Assembly: GCF_020991275.1 (NCBI RefSeq)
Contig: NZ_JAJLQY010000004.1
Location: forward strand, 248,001-312,000
DNA from: Actinocorallia sp. API 0066
Lineage (GTDB): Bacteria > Actinomycetota > Actinomycetes > Streptosporangiales > Streptosporangiaceae
Direction of reading: 5' to 3'
DNA length: 64,000 nucleotides
Shown: positions 1,157-37,839 of the stretch, one piece after another
Numbering within the stretch: the stretch's first letter is position 1
Layout: each line of letters opens with the position of its first letter
Notes under the pieces: model-generated
The model's input: the letters and a program-made list of their open reading frames with translations, nothing else
What the model was told of the DNA's origin: nothing
Database searches by the model: none
Made by a program: the position numbers and the translations under genes

Positions 1157-3118
1157 TCAGGGGCCGTCGAGCATCAGCGGCAGCAACGGATCGGGCAGAC
1201 CGGTCGGCTCCACCCGTACCGCCCACACCGCCGGGGCGGGCTCCTGGCCGTCGCCGGCGAGCGGATGCGCCGGGCCCGCGCCGCCCCACGGGAACGGCAG
1301 GCACACCGTGTCCTCACGGAGCGTGTCGCTCAGCCGGGCCCGCGCGATCACCACGCCGCGCCGCCCCGACACCCGGACCGTCGCGCCGGGACCGATCCCC
1401 AACCGCTCGGCCAGCTCCGGATGCAGCTCAAGGTAAGGCGTGTCCTCAAAGGGGGCGTGCGTGCCTCCGGGCTGCCGCTCGGCCGTCAGATACAGCGGAT
1501 AGCGCGCGTCCACCTCTTCGGCGGCGCCAGGCTGGTCCACCGCTGTGAACCGTGCCCTCCCGTCCGGGGTGGCGAACCCGTCAAGGAAGGGCCGGGGCGT
1601 GCCCGGATGCGCCGGATCGGGGCACGGCCTGAAGACGCCGCCCTCCACGTCGATCCGCGCGTAGGTGATGCCCGCGTAGTCCGCGCTCCCCCCTGACGAC
1701 GCCCTGCCCAGCTCGGCCAGGACCTCCTCCGGATCCGCGCTCCACTCCCCCGGGCCGTCCAGGCGGGAGGCGAGATCGCGCAGCACCTCCAGCTCGGTGC
1801 GCACACCCTCCGGCGGCGCCATCACCCGCTCACGCCGCAGCACCCTGCCTTCCAGCGTCGTGACGGTCCCGGACACCTCGTTCCAGTGCGCGGTCGGCAG
1901 CACCACGTCAGCGCGGCGCGCCGTCTCCGACAGCGTGTGGTCGGCCACGACGAGCAGATCCAGGCCGTTCAGCCGCTCCTCCACCGCCGCCGGACGGGGC
2001 GAGGACGCCACCGGGTCCGAGCCGAACAGCAGCAGCGCGCGCGGCTTACGCGGCCCGTACAGGAGCCGTTCGGCGGCGACCGTCGAGGCGGGCAGCAGCG
2101 TCGGGTCCATGCCCCAGACGGCGGCGACGGCGGCGCGGGCGGCCGCGTCGTCCAGGGGGCGGTCGCCGGGCAGCAGGTCGGCCCGCTGGCCGTGCCCCTC
2201 GCCCGGATCGGTCGCGCACGCGAACCCCGACCCGTCGTGTCCCGGCAGGCCGAGGGCGAGCGCCAGGTTCACGAACGCGGCGACGGTGTCCCTGTCGCGC
2301 GGCCGCTCGGCCACCACGTACGCCCGGCCCGCCGACGACAGCAGCCGCACCGCCTCACGCATCAGCGCGACCGGCACGCCGGTGATCCGCTCGGCCCGTT
2401 CCGGCCAGTATCCGCTCAGCGCGGTGCGCAGCCGGGCGAACCCCGTCGTGCGCGCCGCCACGTACCCGGCGTCCACAAGGCCGTCGGCGTCCGCGAGCCG
2501 CAGCATGCCGTGCGCCAGCGCCAGATCCGTGCCCGGCGTCAGCTGGAGGTGCAGATCGGCCATACGCGCCGTCTCCGAGCGGCGCGGATCGGCGACGACG
2601 AGGATGCCGCCCGCCGCGCGCATCCGCCGCAGCTCGCGCGGGAACGACGGCGACGCCTCGGCCGCGTCCCCGACCAGGAGCAGCACGTCCGCGTCGCCGA
2701 AGTCCGCCAGCGGGCCCGGCAGCGGCCGGTCGACGCCGAACGCGCGGGCCAGCGCCTCGGCCGCGCCCGGCGCGACCCGCGGCCCGCCGCTGAACGCCAC
2801 CCGCGGCGTGCGCAGCACCGACCTGGCGAACCTGCCGAGCCGGTAGGCGGTCTCGCCCGTCATGGCGCACCCCCCGAGCACCGCCACGGCGTCGTGCCCG
2901 TAGGATGCGCGCAGGCCGCGGACCTTACCGGCGACCGCGTCGAGCGCCGCGTCCCACGAGACGGGTTCGAGCGGCGCGCCGGGATGCACCCGCATCAGCG
3001 GCGTCGTGACACGATCGGGGACCCCGGACGGCACAGCGCCCGAACCGCCCGCGCGCGCGCACCGCGCGGCGTGGCACGGGCAGCGGGACGACGTACTTGC
3101 CGGTTCGCTTACGGCCAT
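1157..3118 (-). CDS. Molybdopterin oxidoreductase, NasA-like, with cofactor residues missing
   Basis: A 653-residue protein of the assimilatory nitrate reductase/NapA molybdopterin superfamily. Family landmarks are clear: TTPLMR...PVSWDAALD near 40-60, PLADFGDADVLLLVGD, VVADPRRSETARMADLHLQLTPGTDLALAHG, DLLVVADHTLSETARRADVVLP, DYAGITYARI and DGFATPDGRARF. Several hallmarks are absent. The N-terminal Fe4S4 segment is compressed to CPCHAARC with no fourth Cys-Lys-Gly. The place of the NapA-type Mo-ligand motif (CMxS) reads PRVAPGAA, without Cys. The C-terminal TGR...HYQSGAQ-type stretch is replaced by a short TAERQPGGTHAPF. It may be a degenerate or divergent enzyme. ATG at 3116-3118 was preferred; a GTG at 3179-3181 is in frame but lies inside the palindrome. 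It precedes nirB, so a nitrate role is inferred from context. Confidence 0.75.
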   Translation of the reverse strand: MAVSEPASTSSRCPCHAARCARAGGSGAVPSGVPDRVTTPLMRVHPGAPLEPVSWDAALDAVAGKVRGLRASYGHDAVAVLGGCAMTGETAYRLGRFARSVLRTPRVAFSGGPRVAPGAAEALARAFGVDRPLPGPLADFGDADVLLLVGDAAEASPSFPRELRRMRAAGGILVVADPRRSETARMADLHLQLTPGTDLALAHGMLRLADADGLVDAGYVAARTTGFARLRTALSGYWPERAERITGVPVALMREAVRLLSSAGRAYVVAERPRDRDTVAAFVNLALALGLPGHDGSGFACATDPGEGHGQRADLLPGDRPLDDAAARAAVAAVWGMDPTLLPASTVAAERLLYGPRKPRALLLFGSDPVASSPRPAAVEERLNGLDLLVVADHTLSETARRADVVLPTAHWNEVSGTVTTLEGRVLRRERVMAPPEGVRTELEVLRDLASRLDGPGEWSADPEEVLAELGRASSGGSADYAGITYARIDVEGGVFRPCPDPAHPGTPRPFLDGFATPDGRARFTAVDQPGAAEEVDARYPLYLTAERQPGGTHAPFEDTPYLELHPELAERLGIGPGATVRVSGRRGVVIARARLSDTLREDTVCLPFPWGGAGPAHPLAGDGQEPAPAVWAVRVEPTGLPDPLLPLMLDGP

Positions 3119-3170
3119 GTCCCGATCGTGATCGGAGGCCGTTTCACATGCGCGTCCCGTGCATGTCCCG

Positions 3171-4019: not shown

Positions 4020-4047
4020 CGGAATCCCCCCCGCGATCCGGCCCGGC

Positions 4048-4185
4048 GGCGGCCGCTCCCGACGAAGTCGGGGTCGCGAAGCGGCCATCCTCCGGGCCCA
4101 TCGAACATGTCCCGGGGGCGGCCGCTCCCGACGAAGTCGGGGTCGCGAAGCGGCCGTCCTCCGGGTCCATCGAACACGTCCCGGC
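4048..4185 (-). repeat. Hairpin repeat family, locus A: two tandem 69-bp copies
   Basis: Two nearly identical 69-bp units (4048-4116 and 4117-4185), differing at only a few positions. Each holds an inner stem CCCGAC-TTC-GTCGGG and an outer stem GGCCGCT/AGCGGCC (copy 1 arms at 4051-4057 and 4080-4086), preceded on the minus strand by GTTCGATGG. Relatives lie at 4995-5023, 10171-10236 and 36498-36803. Function unknown. It sits in the gap between two minus-strand genes. Confidence 0.8.
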
Positions 4186-4926: not shown

Positions 4927-4994
4927 CTTCGAACCCCCACGATTTCCCCCGCCGAGCCTTGCCCCGGCCCGTGCCTGCCTGGGGCCGGAACGGA

Positions 4995-5023
4995 CGCTTC
5001 GCGACCCCGACTTCGTCGGGAGC
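4995..5023 (+). repeat. Hairpin repeat family, locus B: single copy core
   Basis: GCTTCGCGACCCCGACTTCG continuing to GTCGGGAGCG matches the core of locus A, in the opposite orientation. Inner stem CCCGAC/GTCGGG is intact with loop TTC; the outer stem keeps CGCT/AGCG. It lies upstream of the minus-strand MDMPI gene. Confidence 0.7.
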
Positions 5024-5184
5024 GCCCGCCCCCGGCCCTGGTGCCCCCTCACTCGCGGTGACCCTCCGCGAACGCGCAGGCAAGGTTCTCAGAGTTCCGG
5101 CCGCTGTGCCACCTGAGGCGGCAAGCGCGCCGGAAACCCCCGACATCGTCCCCGTCAGACCCCTTCAGGGTGTCCTGCGGGGAG

Positions 5185-10062: not shown

Positions 10063-10170
10063 CCGGGGCCTCCTCACCTCCGCGGACGCACCCCGACCCT
10101 ACCGATCCGGCGACGCCGCCGGGGCGGGACACGACCGGATCGCCGAAGATCTCCCGATCGGTCCCACCCG

Positions 10171-10236
10171 GGGGCGGGCGCTCCCGACCCGGTCGGAACT
10201 CGCCAAGCGCCCGCCCTCGGGCAGATCGAACACAGC
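10171..10236 (-). repeat. Hairpin repeat family, locus C: single diverged copy after gcvP
   Basis: Aligns to the 69-bp unit of locus A in the same orientation, including GTTCGATC at the minus-strand 5' side. Outer stem arms GGGCGGGCGCT (10172-10182) and AGCGCCCGCCC (10206-10216) pair perfectly over 11 bp although their sequence differs from locus A. The inner stem is CCGAC/GTCGG with loop CCG. It begins 14 bp after the gcvP stop, so it could act in the mRNA 3' end. Confidence 0.7.
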
Positions 10237-10249
10237 GGCGCGGGAGGCG

Positions 10250-13108
10250 TCAGTCCTCGAAGGCTTCGGGCGGGGGGCAGGAGCAGACGAGGTTGCGGTC
10301 GCCGTAGGCGCCGTCGATGCGGCCGACCGGGGCCCAGTACTTGTGCGCGCGCAGCGACGCCACCGGGTAGGCGGCCTCCTCGCGGGTGTACCCGTGCTTC
10401 CACTCCTCGACGAGCAGGGTCTCGGCGGTGTGCGGCGCGTTGTGCAGCGGGTTGTCGGCGGCGTCCCACTCGCCGGACGCGACCCTGTCGATCTCCGCGC
10501 GGACGGCGATCATCGCGTCGCAGAAGCGGTCGAGTTCGGCGAGGTCCTCGGACTCGGTCGGCTCGATCATCAGCGTGCCCGCGACCGGGAAGGAGAGGGT
10601 CGGCGCGTGGAAGCCGTAGTCGATGAGCCGCTTGGCGACGTCCTCGGCGGTGACGCCGGTGTCCTTGGTGAGCTTGCGCAGGTCGGCGATGCACTCGTGC
10701 GCGACGAGCCCGCCCTGCCCGGTGTAGAGGATCGGGTAGTGCGGGGCGAGGCGGCGCGCCACGTAGTTGGCGGCGAGCACGGCGACCTCGGTCGCGCGGC
10801 GCAGGCCGGTGGGGCCCATCATCGCGATGTAGGCCCACGGGATCGGCAGGATGCCCGCCGAGCCCCACGGCGCCGCCGAGATCGGCCCGACGCCCGTCTC
10901 GGGGCCGGCCTCGGGCCGCAGCGGGTGGCTGGGCAGGAACGGCGCGAGGTGCGCGCCGACGGCGACCGGGCCGACGCCGGGGCCGCCGCCGCCGTGCGGG
11001 ATGCAGAACGTCTTGTGCAGGTTGAGGTGGGAGACGTCGGCGCCGAACTCGCCGGGACGGGCGAGGCCGACGAGCGCGTTGAGGTTGGCGCCGTCCACGT
11101 AGACCTGGCCGCCCGCCGCGTGCACGGCCGCACAGATCTCGGTGATGCCCTCCTCGTACACGCCGTGCGTGGACGGGTACGTCACCATGATCACGGACAG
11201 TTCCTCGGCGTGCCTGTCGAGCTTGCCGCGCAGGTCGTCGAGGTCGACGTTGCCGTTGTCGTCGCACTTGACGACGACGACGCGCATCCCGGCCATGACG
11301 GCGCTGGCCGCGTTGGTGCCGTGCGCGGAGGACGGGATGAGGCAGACGTTCCGGTGCGCTTCGCCGCGCGAGGCGTGGTAGGCGCGGACGGCGAGGAGCC
11401 CGGCCAGTTCGCCCTGCGATCCGGCGTTCGGCTGCACGGACACCTTCGCGTAGCCGGTGATCTCGGCGAGCCACTCCTCCAGCTCGGTGATCAGCTCGAC
11501 GTACCCCGCGGCCTGCTCGATCGGCGCGAACGGGTGCAGGTTCGCGAACTCGGGCCAGGTGATGGGCTCCATCTCGGTCGTCGCGTTGAGTTTCATGGTG
11601 CAGGAGCCCAGCGGGATCATGGAGCGGTCGAGCGCGATGTCCCGGTCCTGGAGGCGGCGCAGGTAGCGCAGCATCGAGGTCTCGGACCGGTGGGTGTGGA
11701 ACACCGGGTGGGTGAGGAAGTCGCTCGTGCGCAGCACCTCGGTGGGCAGCGCCTCGCCCTCGGCCTCGACGACGGCGACGGCACGCCGGAACGACCGCTG
11801 CTCCATCGCCTCAAGGAGGTTCTGGAGGTCGTCCTCGGTGGTGGTCTCGTCGAAGGCGACGGCGACGGTCTCGGCGTCCACGAGCCGGATGTTGTACCCG
11901 GCGCGGCGCGCGGCCGCGACGGTGTTCGGCCCCGTGGTGGGGACGCGGATCGTCAGCGTGTCGAAGTACGTGGTGTTGACGACCTCGTAGCCCTCGACCT
12001 CCTGCGCGGCGATCGACGCGGCGAAGGACGCGGCGCGCCGGTGCACGCGCCCGGCGATCTCCCGCAGCCCGTCGGGCCCGTGGTAGACGGCGTACATGGA
12101 CGCCATGACGGCGAGCAGCACCTGGGCGGTGCAGATGTTCGAGGTGGCCTTCTCGCGCCGGATGTGCTGTTCGCGGGTCTGGAGCGCGAGCCGGTAGGCG
12201 GGCCTGCCCGCGGCGTCCACGGAGACGCCGACGAGACGGCCGGGGAGCTGCCGCTGGAGTTCGGCGCGCACGGCCATGTAGCCCGCGTGCGGTCCGCCGA
12301 ACCCGAACGGCACACCGAACCGCTGGGCCGAGCCCACGACGATGTCGGCGCCGCTCTCGCCGGGCGACTTCAGCAGGGTCAGCGCGAGCAGGTCGGCGGC
12401 GACGACGAGCTGGGCGCCGCGCGCGTGCACCGCCTCGGCCAGCGGCGCGAGGTCGCGGACGGCCCCGGACGCGCCGGGGTACTGGGCGAGCACGCCGAAG
12501 ACCTCGCCCTCGGGCAGCGGCCCGTCCAGGTCGGCGACGACGACGGGGATGCCGAGCGGCAGCGCGCGGGCGCGGATGACCTCGACGGTCTGGGGCAGCG
12601 CGTCGGCGTCCACGACGAACGCGCCGGGCTCCTTGCGGCGGGTCGCGCGCAGCGCCAGGGCCATCGCCTCGGCGGCGGCGGTGCCCTCGTCCAGCATGGA
12701 CGCGTTCGCGACGGGCACGCCGGTGAGGTCGGCGATCATGGTCTGGAAGTTGAGCAGCGCCTCAAGGCGGCCCTGGGAGATCTCCGGCTGGTACGGGGTG
12801 TAGGCGGTGTACCAGCCCGGGTTCTCCAGGACGTTGCGCAGGATCACGCCGGGGGTCGTCGTGCCGTGGTAGCCGAGGCCGATGTAGGAGGTGAGCACGC
12901 GGTTGCGGGAGGCGAAGCCGCGCAGCTTGGCCAGCGCCTCGGTCTCGCTCAGCGGAGCGGGCAGGTCGAGCGGCCGGGTGGTGCGGATCGAGGCCGGGAC
13001 CGCGGCGTCGATGAGCGCGCCGAGATCGGCGAACCCGACGACGGCGAGCATCCGTTGGAGGTCGGCGGCCGACGGGCCGATGTGACGGTCGGTGAAGTTG
13101 GCGGTCAT
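10250..13108 (-). CDS. gcvP: Glycine dehydrogenase (decarboxylating), P-protein
   Basis: A 952-residue homodimer-type P-protein of the glycine cleavage system. It decarboxylates glycine with PLP and hands the aminomethyl group to lipoyl-GcvH. N-terminal FTDRHIGPS and [16 protein letters not shown], the mid-protein [12 protein letters not shown], and the PLP-lysine site [18 protein letters not shown] near residue 700 are canonical, and length is normal for the single-chain form. It is preceded by a tandem glycine aptamer riboswitch, which explains its regulation by glycine. gcvT and gcvH are not in this window. ATG at 13106-13108. Confidence 0.97.
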
Positions 13109-13159: not shown

Positions 13160-13345
13160 CGCTCCCCCTCTGTTTCGGAACCTGAGAGCTTCGCCCTGGC
13201 ATCAGGGCTTTCACCTTCGGTGGGGCACATGCCCGCTTTCCAGAGGCGCCTCACCCGACGGTCCGTTTGCCTGAGAGGTTCCGGGGACGTTGCTCCTTCG
13301 GCGCTCCGCACCGGATTGCACGGAGTCTCTCCCGCCTGGGGTCGA
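13160..13345 (-). promoter_or_regulatory. Tandem glycine riboswitch controlling gcvP
   Basis: Two consecutive glycine aptamers read on the minus strand. The first (about 13335 down to 13265) contains CGGGAGAGACTCC, CGCCGAAGGAGCAA and AACCTCTCAGGCAAACGGACC. The second (about 13258 down to 13163) contains CACCGAAGGTGAAAGCC and CTCTCAGGTTCCGAAACAGAGG. The doubled CTCTCAGG core and CGAAGG loops are the family hallmark. The gcvP start lies about 50 nt further on, so glycine binding probably turns gcvP on; whether it acts on termination or translation is not clear. Confidence 0.92.
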
Positions 13346-33908: not shown

Positions 33909-34232
33909 GCACAGCCCCCGGCCGATGCCCGACATCTGAGCAGGACGGCATATCGGAAGGTATGACCATCCCGAAGGAGAAGCAACGAGGCGGAAGGTCG
34001 CCGATCCTGCGCCATCTTCGCAGCACGCCTCGAAAAACAGATAACGCAGGATAAAAGCAAGCACATGAGGGAAAGATACCCATACCCGAGGAGTGGGTAG
34101 AAGAACAGCTCAAGAGCGCGCCCGAAAGATCCCAAAGAATGGTCTTATGCCGTCGCCAGTATTGTGCAGCATGAAAAATAACGGAAGAGGAATAATTCCC
34201 CGCCGCCCATCTCGATCGTGAGGCTTGGAGAA
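33909..34232. other. 324-bp AT-richer spacer without a convincing gene
   Basis: Composition falls visibly from about base 33950 onward. Two micro-frames start with ATG: one at 33962-34054 (30 aa, MTIPKEKQRGGRSPILRHLR..., preceded by GGAAGG) and one at 34171-34221 (16 aa). Neither has family support. No strong terminator hairpin was seen. Confidence 0.4.
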
Positions 34233-35357
34233 CTATGTCAGCAGCGTCCGCAACTGCTGGCGCATAATTCTCACCTCAGGCACTTCACGATAGGGGCTAG
34301 AAAGTGCCATAATTTCGCCTAGATATCCATCCAGGCGGGCCGAGGACACAAGAGGCGCCACGCAACTCAAGGTGTTCATCAACTCCGCGGCCACATAAGG
34401 AAGGCCCGCATTTAGCGCTGCCTGCACCTGGCGGGCCATGTAGTTCGCTCCGAGCAAGGGGGAAGTTGGGATGATAAGCCTGACCGCCTCCTGGAACGCG
34501 GCAATTGACTTTCCCCAGTCCCCTTGATCGTAAAACGCCACACCAACGTTTCCAGTCAACCTGGCCCGCTCGAACTCGGGTAGCTCCGAACCGATTTCCT
34601 GAGCCTTTTCTAGCGCTGCATAAGAATGCCTTTTCTCGCGAAGTAGACCTAGGGCTCGGCCGAGGCTCACAAACCCTTGCGCCTCTTGCCAAGGAGATAT
34701 TCCTGGAACTGACAAAGCTTGGCGTGCCCAGCGTTCGCCATGATACCCGTCTTGCCCATAACTGTAGAAAGATGACAGCTCGTTAAGCGCATCGCTCTGC
34801 CCACTGTCGTCCTTGGCCTGACGAGCAAGGATCGCAGAAATCTTCCCGGACTCCTGCGCCTGTGGCAATTTTCTAGCGTCATACTGGACGCGAGAAACTT
34901 GCCGGGCGAGCTGTGATGCGGCCCCGAGGAGACGCACATCTTTAGTGTCCGCGACAGAATCACGAACACGGCGAAGGTGCCTGGCAGACTCTTCTAGAGT
35001 ACTAATCCCTCCTGATCCGTAGAGGCCCATTTCCACCCTATCGGAGAGCAGCATCACATACTCAGGATTAGAGTAAGGATTCCCGTTGGAGGCGGGGACA
35101 AAAGTAGCAGTTGCCACACTGGCGATGAATTCGCGTCGCTTCACTTCGACCTCATCGATTTTACGCCTTATGACCAGTTCGTAGCCTACTCGTCCCAACA
35201 GCGCAATAGCGTTGCCAACCGGGGTGTCCCGCTGTCCCGTGACCACCCTGGACACCCAGGTGGTTTGTACTCCCATCTCCCTTGCCAGGCGTGCTTGATG
35301 CCACCCTTCCTCCTTCATGATCATTTTAAGCGCGCCTGGCAGGGTCTTGGCTTCCAT
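34233..35357 (-). CDS. HTH (Cro/CI-type) plus TPR regulator in a low-GC island
   Basis: A 374-residue protein. The N-terminal HTH is ALKMIMKEEGWHQARLAREMGVQTTWVSRVVTGQRDTPV (about 9-47). A KRREFIASVATATFVP segment (about 73-88) looks like a twin-arginine motif but is internal and common in actinobacterial HTH-TPR regulators. The rest is TPR-like helical repeats (YAALEKAQEIGSELPEFERA; AFYDQGDWGKSIAAFQEAVRLI). Base and codon use are clearly AT-richer than every other gene in the window, a sign of recent transfer. ATG at 35355-35357 with a weak ribosome-binding site. Targets unknown. Confidence 0.8.
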   Translation of the reverse strand: MEAKTLPGALKMIMKEEGWHQARLAREMGVQTTWVSRVVTGQRDTPVGNAIALLGRVGYELVIRRKIDEVEVKRREFIASVATATFVPASNGNPYSNPEYVMLLSDRVEMGLYGSGGISTLEESARHLRRVRDSVADTKDVRLLGAASQLARQVSRVQYDARKLPQAQESGKISAILARQAKDDSGQSDALNELSSFYSYGQDGYHGERWARQALSVPGISPWQEAQGFVSLGRALGLLREKRHSYAALEKAQEIGSELPEFERARLTGNVGVAFYDQGDWGKSIAAFQEAVRLIIPTSPLLGANYMARQVQAALNAGLPYVAAELMNTLSCVAPLVSSARLDGYLGEIMALSSPYREVPEVRIMRQQLRTLLT

Positions 35358-35581
35358 AAGATGAGACTACTGCTTTCAGGAGCACAGCCCACCACCATAT
35401 TCCCGCAGAGGAAATATTGTCGATACGTCATGATCACGACACAAGCGATCATAATACGCGCGACGTGCCACATCTTCGGGGCTGAGATCACATCCTCAGC
35501 GGATGTTACTTTCTGTAGTCTTCCCAGTTCAGGGCCTATGTGCAAGCCGAGGTAGAAGACCGGCCCTTTACTTGGCGCGGC

Positions 35582-35637
35582 CCCGCCGCCGCGCAGGCGT
35601 CGAGGATCGCGAAGGACGTCGCCTCGTCGGCCGTCCA
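35582..35637 (-). pseudogene. 56-bp copy of an internal piece of the aldo/keto reductase gene
   Basis: Matches 37666-37721 inside the aldo/keto reductase gene with about 3 mismatches in 56 bases, in the same orientation. It reads WTADEATSFAILDACAAAG versus WTADEATSFAILDAYAAAG. It has no start and no continuation on either side. It marks a recombination junction between the AT-rich island and the truncated TPR gene. Confidence 0.85.
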
Positions 35638-36493
35638 GGAGGTTCCGGCGCTCGGCCTGCGGCTGGTGTCCGCGCTGTCCGGGTACTGGTGGCTGCGCGG
35701 CATGCGCCGGGAGGGCGCGGCGGCGGCCCGGTCCCTGCTCGCGATGTGGGCGGTCGCGGCCGGGCCGCCCACCGACCACGCCGAACAGATACGGCAGATG
35801 CGCGCCAGCTCGATCGGCGACGGCAGGCCGTGGTCACGCGCGCTCGTCGAACTCGGCCACGGCATGCTCCACCTGTTCGAGGGCACGCCCGGCACCGCGC
35901 GCCGCCACCTGGAAGCCGCGCTCGCCGGCTTCGAGGCGATCGGCGAACGCTGGGGCATGGCGACGGCGCGGGACACCCTGTCGGTGACGGCCGAACTCGC
36001 GGGCGACCTGCCGGGGGCGCTCGACCTCCTGGACGGGGCGCTGCGGCTCATGCGGGAGCTCGACTCCTACGGGGAGAGCGCCGACGTGCTGCTGCGCCGC
36101 GCCGACATCCTGCTGCGGATGGGCCGCACCGGCGCCGCCGCCGAGGCGTACGCCGAGGCCGAGGCGCTCGCGGCGCGCGCGGGCACCAGGGCCGCCCGCA
36201 CCCAGGCCCGGCGCGGCAGGGGCGACCTGGCCGCCGCGCGCGGCCACTGGGACGAGGCCGAGGCGCACTACACCGCGGCCCTCGCCGAGTGCACCGACCA
36301 CTGGTACGCCCAGCACCTACGCGCCGAATGCCTGTTCGGCATGGCCCGCGTCGCCGCCGCCCGCGACGACCGCCCCCTGGCCCGCCACCACGCCGCCGAG
36401 ACCATCACCACCGCCACGGGCCACCCCCTGGCCCGCTACCTCGCCGCCGAAGCAGCCGCCCTCCTCCACGAACTCGACGGCCCCGACAGCTGA
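35638..36493 (+). pseudogene. 5'-truncated AfsR/LuxR-type ATPase regulator remnant (TPR region only)
   Basis: The recognisable part begins at ALGLRLVSALSGYWWLRGMRREG, which in large AfsR/SARP- or LAL-type regulators follows the NB-ARC ATPase domain. About 285 residues of TPR-like helices follow (RRHLEAALAGFEAIGERWG, AAEAYAEAEALAARAG, HWDEAEAHYTAALAEC). The N-terminal HTH and ATPase (normally several hundred residues) are absent. Instead the frame runs backwards through the aldo/keto reductase fragment. A peptide could still be made from ATG 35540, but the regulator is clearly broken. GC content is normal here. Confidence 0.75.
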
Positions 36494-36497
36494 CGGG

Positions 36498-36803
36498 CGT
36501 GTCCGCTCGGACCCAGGGGCGACCCCCGACCTCGTCGGAAACCCCCTCGGGCATGTTCGCTCGGGCCTGGCCCGACCTCGTCGGAAGCCCTCTCGGGCGT
36601 GTTCGCTCGGGCCTGGGGGCGCTTTGGGCGACCTCGACTTTGTCGGGAGCACCCCCGGCGTGTTCGCTCGGACCCAGGGGCGCTCGGCCGACCCCGACCT
36701 TGTCAGGAGCGTGTTCGCTTGGGCTCGGGGGGCTTTGCGCGACCCCGACTTCGTCGGAAGCGCCCCCAGGTGTGTTCGTTCGGACCCGGGGGCGCTTGGG
36801 CGG
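36498..36803 (+). repeat. Hairpin repeat family, locus D: tandem array of 5-6 diverged copies
   Basis: Units begin with GTGTTCGCTCGG or close variants at about 36498, 36552, 36599, 36660, 36711 and 36772 (last partial), each 46-61 bp. Most contain a form of GACCCCGACTTCGTCGGAAGC. Unit 5 keeps GGGGG-GCTT paired with AAGC-CCCCC outside the inner CCGAC/GTCGG stem. The array starts 5 bp after the truncated TPR gene's stop and fills the gap to the convergent aldo/keto reductase gene. Confidence 0.8.
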
Positions 36804-36845: not shown

Positions 36846-37793
36846 TCAGGGGGTCGAGGCGGCGGTGAGCGCGGCCAGGTCCTCGTCCGAGAGTTTTACG
36901 TCGGGGAAGGCCAGGAGTGGCGTGAGCTGCCGCAGGGTGCGGGCGCTCGCGATCGGGGCGAGGACCGTGGGCTGGGCGGCGAGCCAGGCGAGGGAGACCT
37001 CGACGGGCGAGACGCCGTGTGTTCCGGCGATCTCCTCGACCTGCGTCAGGACGCGCACCGCGCGCGGATCCTGGAGCAGCTTCTCCGCTCCGGCGGCGCG
37101 CGGGCTGTCGACGGCGGGGCCGCCCGGACGGTACTTGCCGGTGAGGAATCCGGCGGCGAGCGCGAAGTACGGCAGCGCGGACAGGCCGTGCTCGGCGGCG
37201 AGCGCCGCCCGCTCGCCCTCGTAGGTGTCGCGGCTCACCAGGTTGTAGTGCGGCTGGATCGCGACGTACTTGGCGAGGCCCGCGCGGTCGGAGAACTCCA
37301 GCGAGGCGCGCAGCCGTTCGGGTGAGATGTTCGAGACGGCGATCTGCCGGACCTTGCCCTCGCGGACCAGCTCGTCCAGGGCGGTGATGATGTCCTCGAC
37401 CGGGACTGTCTCGTCGTCGTAGTGCGTGTAGTACAGGTCGATGCGGTCGGTGCCGAGCCGGGTCAGCGACGCTTCGGCGGCGGCCCTGATCGTCTGCGGC
37501 CGGAGGCCGGTGAACTGCGGGTGGCGGCCGACCTTGGTGGCGATGACGATGTCGTCGCGGTTGCCGCGCGCGGCGGTCCAGCGGCCGATGATCCCCTCGG
37601 ACTCGCCGCCGGAGTGGCCGGGCAGCCACGCCGAGTACGAGTCGGCGGTGTCGATGAAGTTGCCGCCCGCCGCGGCGTAGGCGTCGAGGATCGCGAAGGA
37701 CGTCGCTTCGTCGGCCGTCCAGCCGAAGACGTTGCCACCGAGGTTCAGCGGGGACACCAGCAGGTCGGAGATGCCGATGGGCTTGAGACTCAT
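36846..37793 (-). CDS. Aldo/keto reductase
   Basis: A 315-residue NADPH-dependent oxidoreductase with a TIM-barrel fold. GGNFIDTADSYS (catalytic Asp and Tyr, about 45-56), IATKVG (Lys), and YYTHYDD in place of the usual LHxxD (His retained) give the tetrad; the later NLVSRDTYE and PIASARTLRQL are typical of the YajO/AKR11-12-like group. Substrate unknown. ATG at 37791-37793 is preferred to one 11 codons upstream, as the family begins MSLKPIGIS. A 56-bp piece of this gene is duplicated 2.1 kb away. Confidence 0.9.
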   Translation of the reverse strand: MSLKPIGISDLLVSPLNLGGNVFGWTADEATSFAILDAYAAAGGNFIDTADSYSAWLPGHSGGESEGIIGRWTAARGNRDDIVIATKVGRHPQFTGLRPQTIRAAAEASLTRLGTDRIDLYYTHYDDETVPVEDIITALDELVREGKVRQIAVSNISPERLRASLEFSDRAGLAKYVAIQPHYNLVSRDTYEGERAALAAEHGLSALPYFALAAGFLTGKYRPGGPAVDSPRAAGAEKLLQDPRAVRVLTQVEEIAGTHGVSPVEVSLAWLAAQPTVLAPIASARTLRQLTPLLAFPDVKLSDEDLAALTAASTP

Positions 37794-37839
37794 GATCTGG
37801 CAGAACCCACTCGGGGCCGCCGTCATTCCCGCGGCGCGC

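Follow-up and report, generated by a model that had tools for sequence, protein, structure and literature searches.

The tandem array at positions 36499-36803 of the analysed window, a 64,000-nt stretch of the Actinocorallia sp. API 0066 genome, is best explained, at a probability of about 0.78, as an old and by now decayed cluster of a mobile hairpin repeat peculiar to the genus, comparable in character to the REP sequences and the palindromic elements of Rickettsia. The hairpin family comprises 120 copies at 87 sites in the 7.0-Mb genome, and the array is a decayed outlier of it.

The first-pass annotation had described the array as five to six copies of a hairpin repeat measuring 46 to 61 bp, and this description held. 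The region contains six GTGTTCGCTCGG-like heads and five hairpin cores, the latter recognised by eye, with the sixth unit consisting of a truncated head; head-to-head spacings are 54, 46, 61, 51 and 61 bp. With at most one mismatch allowed, a head starts at the first position of each of the six units in Table 1. The opening sequence ascribed to every copy, the exact 12-mer GTGTTCGCTCGG, is present in two of the six heads, whereas the other four carry one mismatch. Six head matches were reached in none of 100 dinucleotide shuffles of the window (mean, 0.87; maximum, 3), and Tandem Repeats Finder reported a period of 46 bp at 36525-36616 (93% matches) and a period of 61 bp at 36596-36802 (3.6 copies, 68% matches). 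The site was also rightly singled out as the one with the most copies, since a looser head pattern gave six heads here, five at the runner-up and then four. The hairpins themselves are mostly lost: the four of the six units that were folded gave z scores of −0.7, −1.4, +0.9 and −0.2, and the covariance model of the family picked up two of the five cores, both of which the clustering entered as single copies. At gathering scores, the only Rfam matches in the window were two glycine riboswitches, and none fell at the array. The array lies between the 3′ ends of an ORF for a tetratricopeptide repeat (TPR) protein and a convergent aldo/keto reductase gene.

Table 1. Positions of the array units, of their neighbours and of other family members in the window, and of the long-form copies (locus:positions)
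Feature	Position	Strand	Remarks
Array unit 1 (54 bp)	36499-36552	+	One-mismatch head; core decayed (near 36524-36539)
Array unit 2 (46 bp)	36553-36598	+	One-mismatch head; core at 36571-36586; 46-bp tandem pair (93%) spanning 36525-36616
Array unit 3 (61 bp)	36599-36659	+	Exact head; covariance-model match, 36.9 bits
Array unit 4 (51 bp)	36660-36710	+	Exact head; core at 36690-36710, after which the usual 3′ arm would not fit
Array unit 5 (61 bp)	36711-36771	+	One-mismatch head; covariance-model match, 40.2 bits
Array unit 6 (truncated)	36772-36803	+	Head and start of 5′ arm only
TPR ORF	35540-36493	+	Residues 55-312 match the C-terminal part of the 975-aa BTAD/TPR regulator open in G002 (57% identity)
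Aldo/keto reductase gene	36846-37826	−	Convergent with TPR ORF
Reductase-gene fragment (57 bp)	35582-35638		94.7% identical to 37666-37722; at edge of low-GC stretch
Family member, canonical 69-bp unit	4040-4108	−	Second of tandem pair; 90.4 bits
Family member, canonical 69-bp unit	4109-4177	−	First of tandem pair; 94.8 bits
Family member, single copy	4971-5038	+	64.1 bits
Family member, single copy	10165-10233	−	52.2 bits; 17 bp from 3′ end of ORF 10250-13108
Long-form copies	L156:3042-3143, L134:2961-3064, L143:2954-3054		Extra apical stem
Long-form copies	L155:2971-3074, L193:3007-3108, L176:6094-6183		Extra apical stem

The family was delineated with a covariance model of the hairpin built from 20 copies, which found at least 109 matches in the API 0066 genome at E ≤ 0.001, a lower bound because only 150 candidates were scored. 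At E ≤ 0.05, 129 matches in 80 stretches were obtained and reduced to 120 copies by dropping eight opposite-strand overlaps and one match judged to be due to chance. These copies form 63 single, 16 double, 7 triple and 1 quadruple clusters, and all 24 multi-copy clusters run head-to-tail on one strand. Further members lie within the window (Table 1); beyond the ORF that one of them nearly abuts, a putative glycine-cleavage gene by its context, tandem glycine riboswitch aptamers (Rfam, 71 and 46.9 bits) occupy 13163-13344 on the minus strand, just upstream of that ORF. For 27 of the 120 copies a relative of at least 95% identity exists elsewhere in the genome, and the spread is therefore not all ancient; the two array copies included reach 80%. 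The exact apical-stem 19-mer CCCGACTTCGTCGGGAGCG occurs 74 times in this genome and is absent from 40 relatives, and a reversed control yielded no occurrence. The GC content of the window (72%) would be the ground for regarding the repeats as an accident of composition, with GC-rich DNA between genes taking on a repetitive look; the 19-mer counts and the shuffled windows refute this explanation, and we give it practically no credence.

The commonest unit is 69 bp long (48/120 copies; range, 50-104 bp; five copies above 100 bp) and consists of a 10-nt head followed by a 59-nt hairpin with a 7-nt bulge. The unpaired head, GTGTTCGATG, precedes an outer stem of about 18 pairs, the bulge TCGCGAC on the 5′ side only, the apical stem CCCGAC/GTCGGG and a TTC loop; the consensus begins with GTGTTCGATG, ends with CCGGGCC and is devoid of a T run. 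A long form, perhaps the older or complete form of the hairpin, is represented by six copies of 90-104 nt, which have an additional apical stem and an arm reading CCCGGC instead of the CCCGAC of the short form. Folded as single-stranded DNA, all four canonical copies analysed were more stable than their shuffled counterparts (z, −3.7 to −6.3). Compensatory changes keep the hairpin paired. Counted over all 129 rows, including the nine discarded later, in an alignment that had been fitted to the structure, double-sided changes occurred somewhere in 21 of 24 pairs (11.2 after shuffling) and affected 179 cells (53 after shuffling), neither value being equalled in 500 shuffles, and 91.7% of cells were paired against 84.5% after shuffling, although these counts lean towards the hand-set structure because the model was given it. 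When the partners were slid by one to three columns, paired cells fell from 92% to 40-44%; consensus folding of the raw MAFFT alignment recovered the apical stem only. Among stem mismatches, A.C outnumbered G.U (109 versus 88, or 108 versus 57 without the outermost pair), which gives no support for folding of the head-first strand as RNA and points weakly to the other strand or to a mutation bias.

The hairpin is restricted in its distribution. At E ≤ 0.001, the covariance model matched two of 150 genomes of the taxonomic family, drawn from a larger group with strict filters, namely the API 0066 genome itself and a genome of the same genus, G002; it had no match in the same-genus genome G001 or in the 147 others. 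The G002 repeats are a sister family of those in API 0066. The apical pair of the 120 API 0066 copies was A-T in 94, A.C in 3, G.T in 3 and G-C in none, with 20 untyped, among them the six long-form copies, and it was G-C in 29 of the 31 distinct G002 copies, with two untyped; thus, in the short forms, both sides of one pair differ between the two species. A recount that placed the long form gave 108 A-U, 6 G-C, 4 G-U and 2 other pairs in the rows with letters. The G002 copies listed start with GTGTTC, GTACTC, GTACCC or variants. A search for the head and apical-stem pattern in contigs of 84,980 species, a collection from which the API 0066 genome may be left out, returned 57 stretches with one match each, in which the model scored 31 matches at E ≤ 1; inspection by eye revealed no convincing family member among the 57. 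The best match, in Actinomadura sp. CNU-125 (33.5 bits), was rejected as a plain hairpin without the bulge, and the second best, in Oligosphaera ethanolica (31.5 bits), was rejected for its incomplete outer stem. Actinomadura sp. CNU-125 carries two similar hairpins after TTCTTCGGGTGTTCCGG (L236:5792-5845 and L263:1916-1984), possibly a small repeat family of its own, and two uncultured-bacterium bins contain an unrelated dispersed AT-rich repeat, GTGTTCCGTAAAACAAAAAA...CCCGACTTCGTCGGGATTCCGCAATTTTGATTTTTAAT (L218, L241, L261 and L266). Viral contigs contained the 19-mer core once, with no other part of the unit, and plasmids yielded no match. Among the papers listed in searches of the open-access literature, none dealt with such elements in actinomycetes, which is weak evidence of absence.

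Most of the sites (64/87) lie outside called genes, many of the copies only a few bases past a called gene end. Convergent gaps were enriched among the gaps that bear an element (23/62, compared with 42/258 of the others; odds ratio, 3.0; P = 0.0007). This preference for 3′ ends, together with the strong hairpins of the canonical copies, would fit intrinsic terminators or mRNA-end hairpins selected at gene ends, the intragenic copies then being accidents. We nevertheless consider this explanation very unlikely, as copies that lie in frame within conserved domains cannot terminate transcription there, the head and the apical stem are conserved beyond what a terminator needs, the consensus lacks a T run, four folded array units have lost the hairpin, and G001 and the 147 other genomes of the taxonomic family have no match.

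Genes are avoided by the repeat but not closed to it, as 23 of the 87 sites fall inside ORFs although coding sequence makes up 84% of the DNA surveyed; genes beyond the Pfam scans were called with a home-made codon caller. Seven of these 23 sites, located at ORF ends or resting on weak matches, were set aside, and at each of the 16 clear sites the copy is in frame, flanked on either side by a coding signal that drops at the element itself. Pfam domains run across the insert in a MOSC N-terminal domain (L130), an aminotransferase of class IV (L142) and AMP-binding enzymes (L178 and L172), three tandem units split the KR domain of a polyketide synthase (L181), and another in-frame insert is found in an ABC transporter gene. 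The peptide that the inserts frequently encode resembles GPGAAAPDEVGVAKRPPSGPIEH. At L114, L132, L147, L180, L181 and L190, the copies lie in genes for polyketide or peptide synthetases, in many cases between two domains, with L147 and L190 being weak candidates. In-frame copies of the G002 family occur, for example, in genes for a pyridine-nucleotide oxidoreductase, a condensation domain, a CobB/CobQ-like protein and a sigma factor. The total insert length is divisible by three for 22 of 23 intragenic units and for 41 of 97 others, a difference that arises partly by construction since calling a copy intragenic requires an open frame. Similarly, 62 of the 120 copies are open in all six frames, compared with 82 of 621 intergenic windows, an excess due in part to composition.

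Orthologues without the insert were found in both G001 and G002 for all three genes compared, encoding the ABC transporter, MOSC and aminotransferase proteins (66-89% protein identity). DNA alignment showed that the MOSC gene had gained a net 69 bp relative to G002, and the aminotransferase gene a net 69 bp relative to both G002 and G001, and BLAST rows showed 84 bp gained at the ABC transporter site, which by eye read as one unit plus a 15-bp foot-and-head remnant, although those sequences align poorly. All three insertions are clean gains without rearrangement, yet the empty sites could in principle represent losses, because G001 and G002 are other species and not strains. Three further genes gave no clean empty site: the LysE-like gene had no row in the relatives, the acetyl-CoA-synthetase-like gene had rows of at most 46% identity only, and the rows for the VIT-VWA gene were not clean. 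Remnants of about 15 bp consisting of foot plus head stand beside full units at L119 (about 3036-3130) and L148 (just beyond 3103), looking as if the hairpin had been precisely deleted.

The inserts are bounded by GGCCC in the MOSC gene and by GACCCG in the aminotransferase gene, each present singly in the empty G002 site; GGGYC stands on both sides of the insert at the two resolved junctions. We examined the left flank at the 80 of 87 sites where the first copy starts like a head. The flank ends with GGGCY at 25 of the 80 sites, where 0.4 would be expected, and equals the element end over 5 bp at 16 (mean of 6.7 after shuffling, with 1 of 5,000 shuffles as high). Given this agreement, which is imperfect at most sites, the hairpin foot looks like a second copy of the target; since no more than 16 of the 80 sites show the exact repeat, target duplication of a fixed kind is not the rule.

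The suggestion that such arrays may expand locally was supported. Of the 57 copies in multi-copy arrays, 22 have their best match within their own array (shuffled mean, 1.0; maximum, 9), and local duplication thus contributes to arrays; in the array studied here, the 46-bp pair is 93% alike. The annotation was also correct in calling the neighbourhood scarred and in noting a duplicated gene fragment. The TPR gene is truncated at its 5′ end, a low-GC stretch at about 34.0-35.6 kb (34001-35600; GC, 0.50-0.59 against about 0.75 around it) lies there, and the 57-bp reductase fragment at its edge is reminiscent of the filler DNA left where a break has been repaired. In G002, an open 975-residue regulator with BTAD and TPR domains follows the reductase gene; in API 0066, the low-GC stretch with a helix-turn-helix (HTH)/TPR gene occupies the place of the 5′ part of that regulator. 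The regulator had no match in the 19.5 kb of G001 examined, and neither the G002 nor the G001 stretch contains an array at the corresponding place. A search of the contig collection for relatives of the TPR protein gave 182 pattern stretches, none of which was confirmed.

That the region differs in all three species, and that the low-GC stretch and the reductase fragment are nearby, would be in keeping with the array being the product of a local rearrangement at a recombination hot spot. However, while the array indeed starts directly after the truncated gene, 5 bp past the TPR stop codon, the truncation is at the other end of this gene, so the breakpoint, with its low-GC stretch and reductase fragment, is separated from the array by about 0.9 kb that includes an intact 3′ gene end. 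This weakens the proposal that the array promotes or marks rearrangement, as do the three clean insertions elsewhere, and we consider an origin of the array by rearrangement highly improbable.

Among known systems, the closest in behaviour are the palindromic elements of Rickettsia and Wolbachia, short palindromes that have entered unrelated genes without disturbing the frame; the rickettsial elements (RPEs) measure about 100-150 bp (PMC10969869, PMC3767692). Like these, copies in both API 0066 and G002 are palindromic repeats in frame inside conserved genes. In contrast to RPEs as described in these sources, the hairpin family is most often 69 bp long, with five of 120 copies exceeding 100 bp, is GC-rich, has a 5′ bulge and an unpaired head, forms head-to-tail arrays and resides in a high-GC actinomycete genus, and relatives lack the insert at the three genes compared. 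The G+C content and the AftD and mycothiol-type domains encountered likewise point to an actinomycete.

REPs are small dispersed hairpins with an unpaired tag at one end and a preference for gene ends, and some are intragenic (PMC3733652). The present repeats are likewise dispersed palindromes, mostly intergenic and enriched in convergent gaps. They would then be an ordinary REP family moved by a RAYT (a Y1 HUH transposase) that was lost or missed, since the unpaired 5′ end, the dispersal, the 3′-end preference and the intragenic copies have all been described for REPs (PMC3733652), and two Y1_Tnp (PF01797) fragments, one with an internal TGA, are retained in G002. Yet REPs carry GTAG or CGTC tags (PMC3733652), whereas neither tag is present in the API 0066 consensus or in the G002 copies listed, and the repeat is a 59-nt two-part hairpin arranged head-to-tail only. 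Y1_Tnp, the domain expected of the RAYTs that accompany GTAG-type REPs, was absent from the API 0066 and G001 genomes in a scan that was positive in 5 of 14 named control genomes. Nor would Y1 enzymes be expected to produce the apparent GGGYC duplication. A RAYT-driven family appears unlikely. CGTC-type REPs have no known transposase, and REPs were reported from other phyla, those named in the passages of PMC3733652 consulted excluding Actinobacteria, with words in "actino" absent from its main text. In sum, the family behaves like REPs and RPEs but lacks the tags and RAYT of the former and the length of the latter.

The repeat resembles MITEs in being short, multi-copy and flanked by an apparent target duplication at two junctions, but the ends of the insert have no terminal inverted repeats, the palindrome being internal, and no parent transposon was found. 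Integron attC sites are likewise folded single-strand hairpins with a variable apex in head-to-tail order; in contrast, no gene cassettes separate the array copies, and attC core boxes were not seen in the consensus by eye. Reverse transcriptase (RVT_1, PF00078), as would be sought for a repeat moved by a retroelement, was found in none of the three same-genus genomes and in 3 of 14 control genomes. In API 0066, neither of these two enzymes was found that might act as the mover. No transposase or recombinase was found among nine proteins encoded between or beside closely spaced elements, a scan that left out the genes of L150 and two of L141, or in the HTH protein of the low-GC stretch.

For the decayed mobile repeat that we favour, the flanks and the pairing suggest the following course. 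Single copies would insert beside GGGYC, with the hairpin foot representing the second target copy and pairing with the RGCCC after the head. After insertion, arrays would grow by head-to-tail tandem duplication. Intragenic copies would survive only where length and frame permit, and copies between gene ends may drift and lose the hairpin, as in the array at 36499-36803. The mover would recognise a folded single strand, either DNA or, less likely, RNA. Going further, we raise with considerable reserve the idea of a new class of actinomycete mobile hairpins that insert by base pairing, the RGCCC beside the head pairing with a GGGYC target, in which the folded strand might be copied or joined in by an enzyme of the host or a cryptic one, of a kind other than Y1 transposases and reverse transcriptases. 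The 69-bp unit, equal to 23 codons and often open in six frames, could then pass through protein genes such as polyketide synthase modules, adding a 23-residue peptide.

Palindromes that code for protein are familiar above all from Rickettsia and Wolbachia. Apparently the same phenomenon is now seen in a large-genome, high-GC genus, in three genomes that differ in having the hairpin. The fixed compensatory difference between two species, the clean empty sites and the readable junctions make the choice of target, the strand and the mover testable, and the insertions in polyketide and peptide synthetases constitute a natural test of enzymes bearing added segments.
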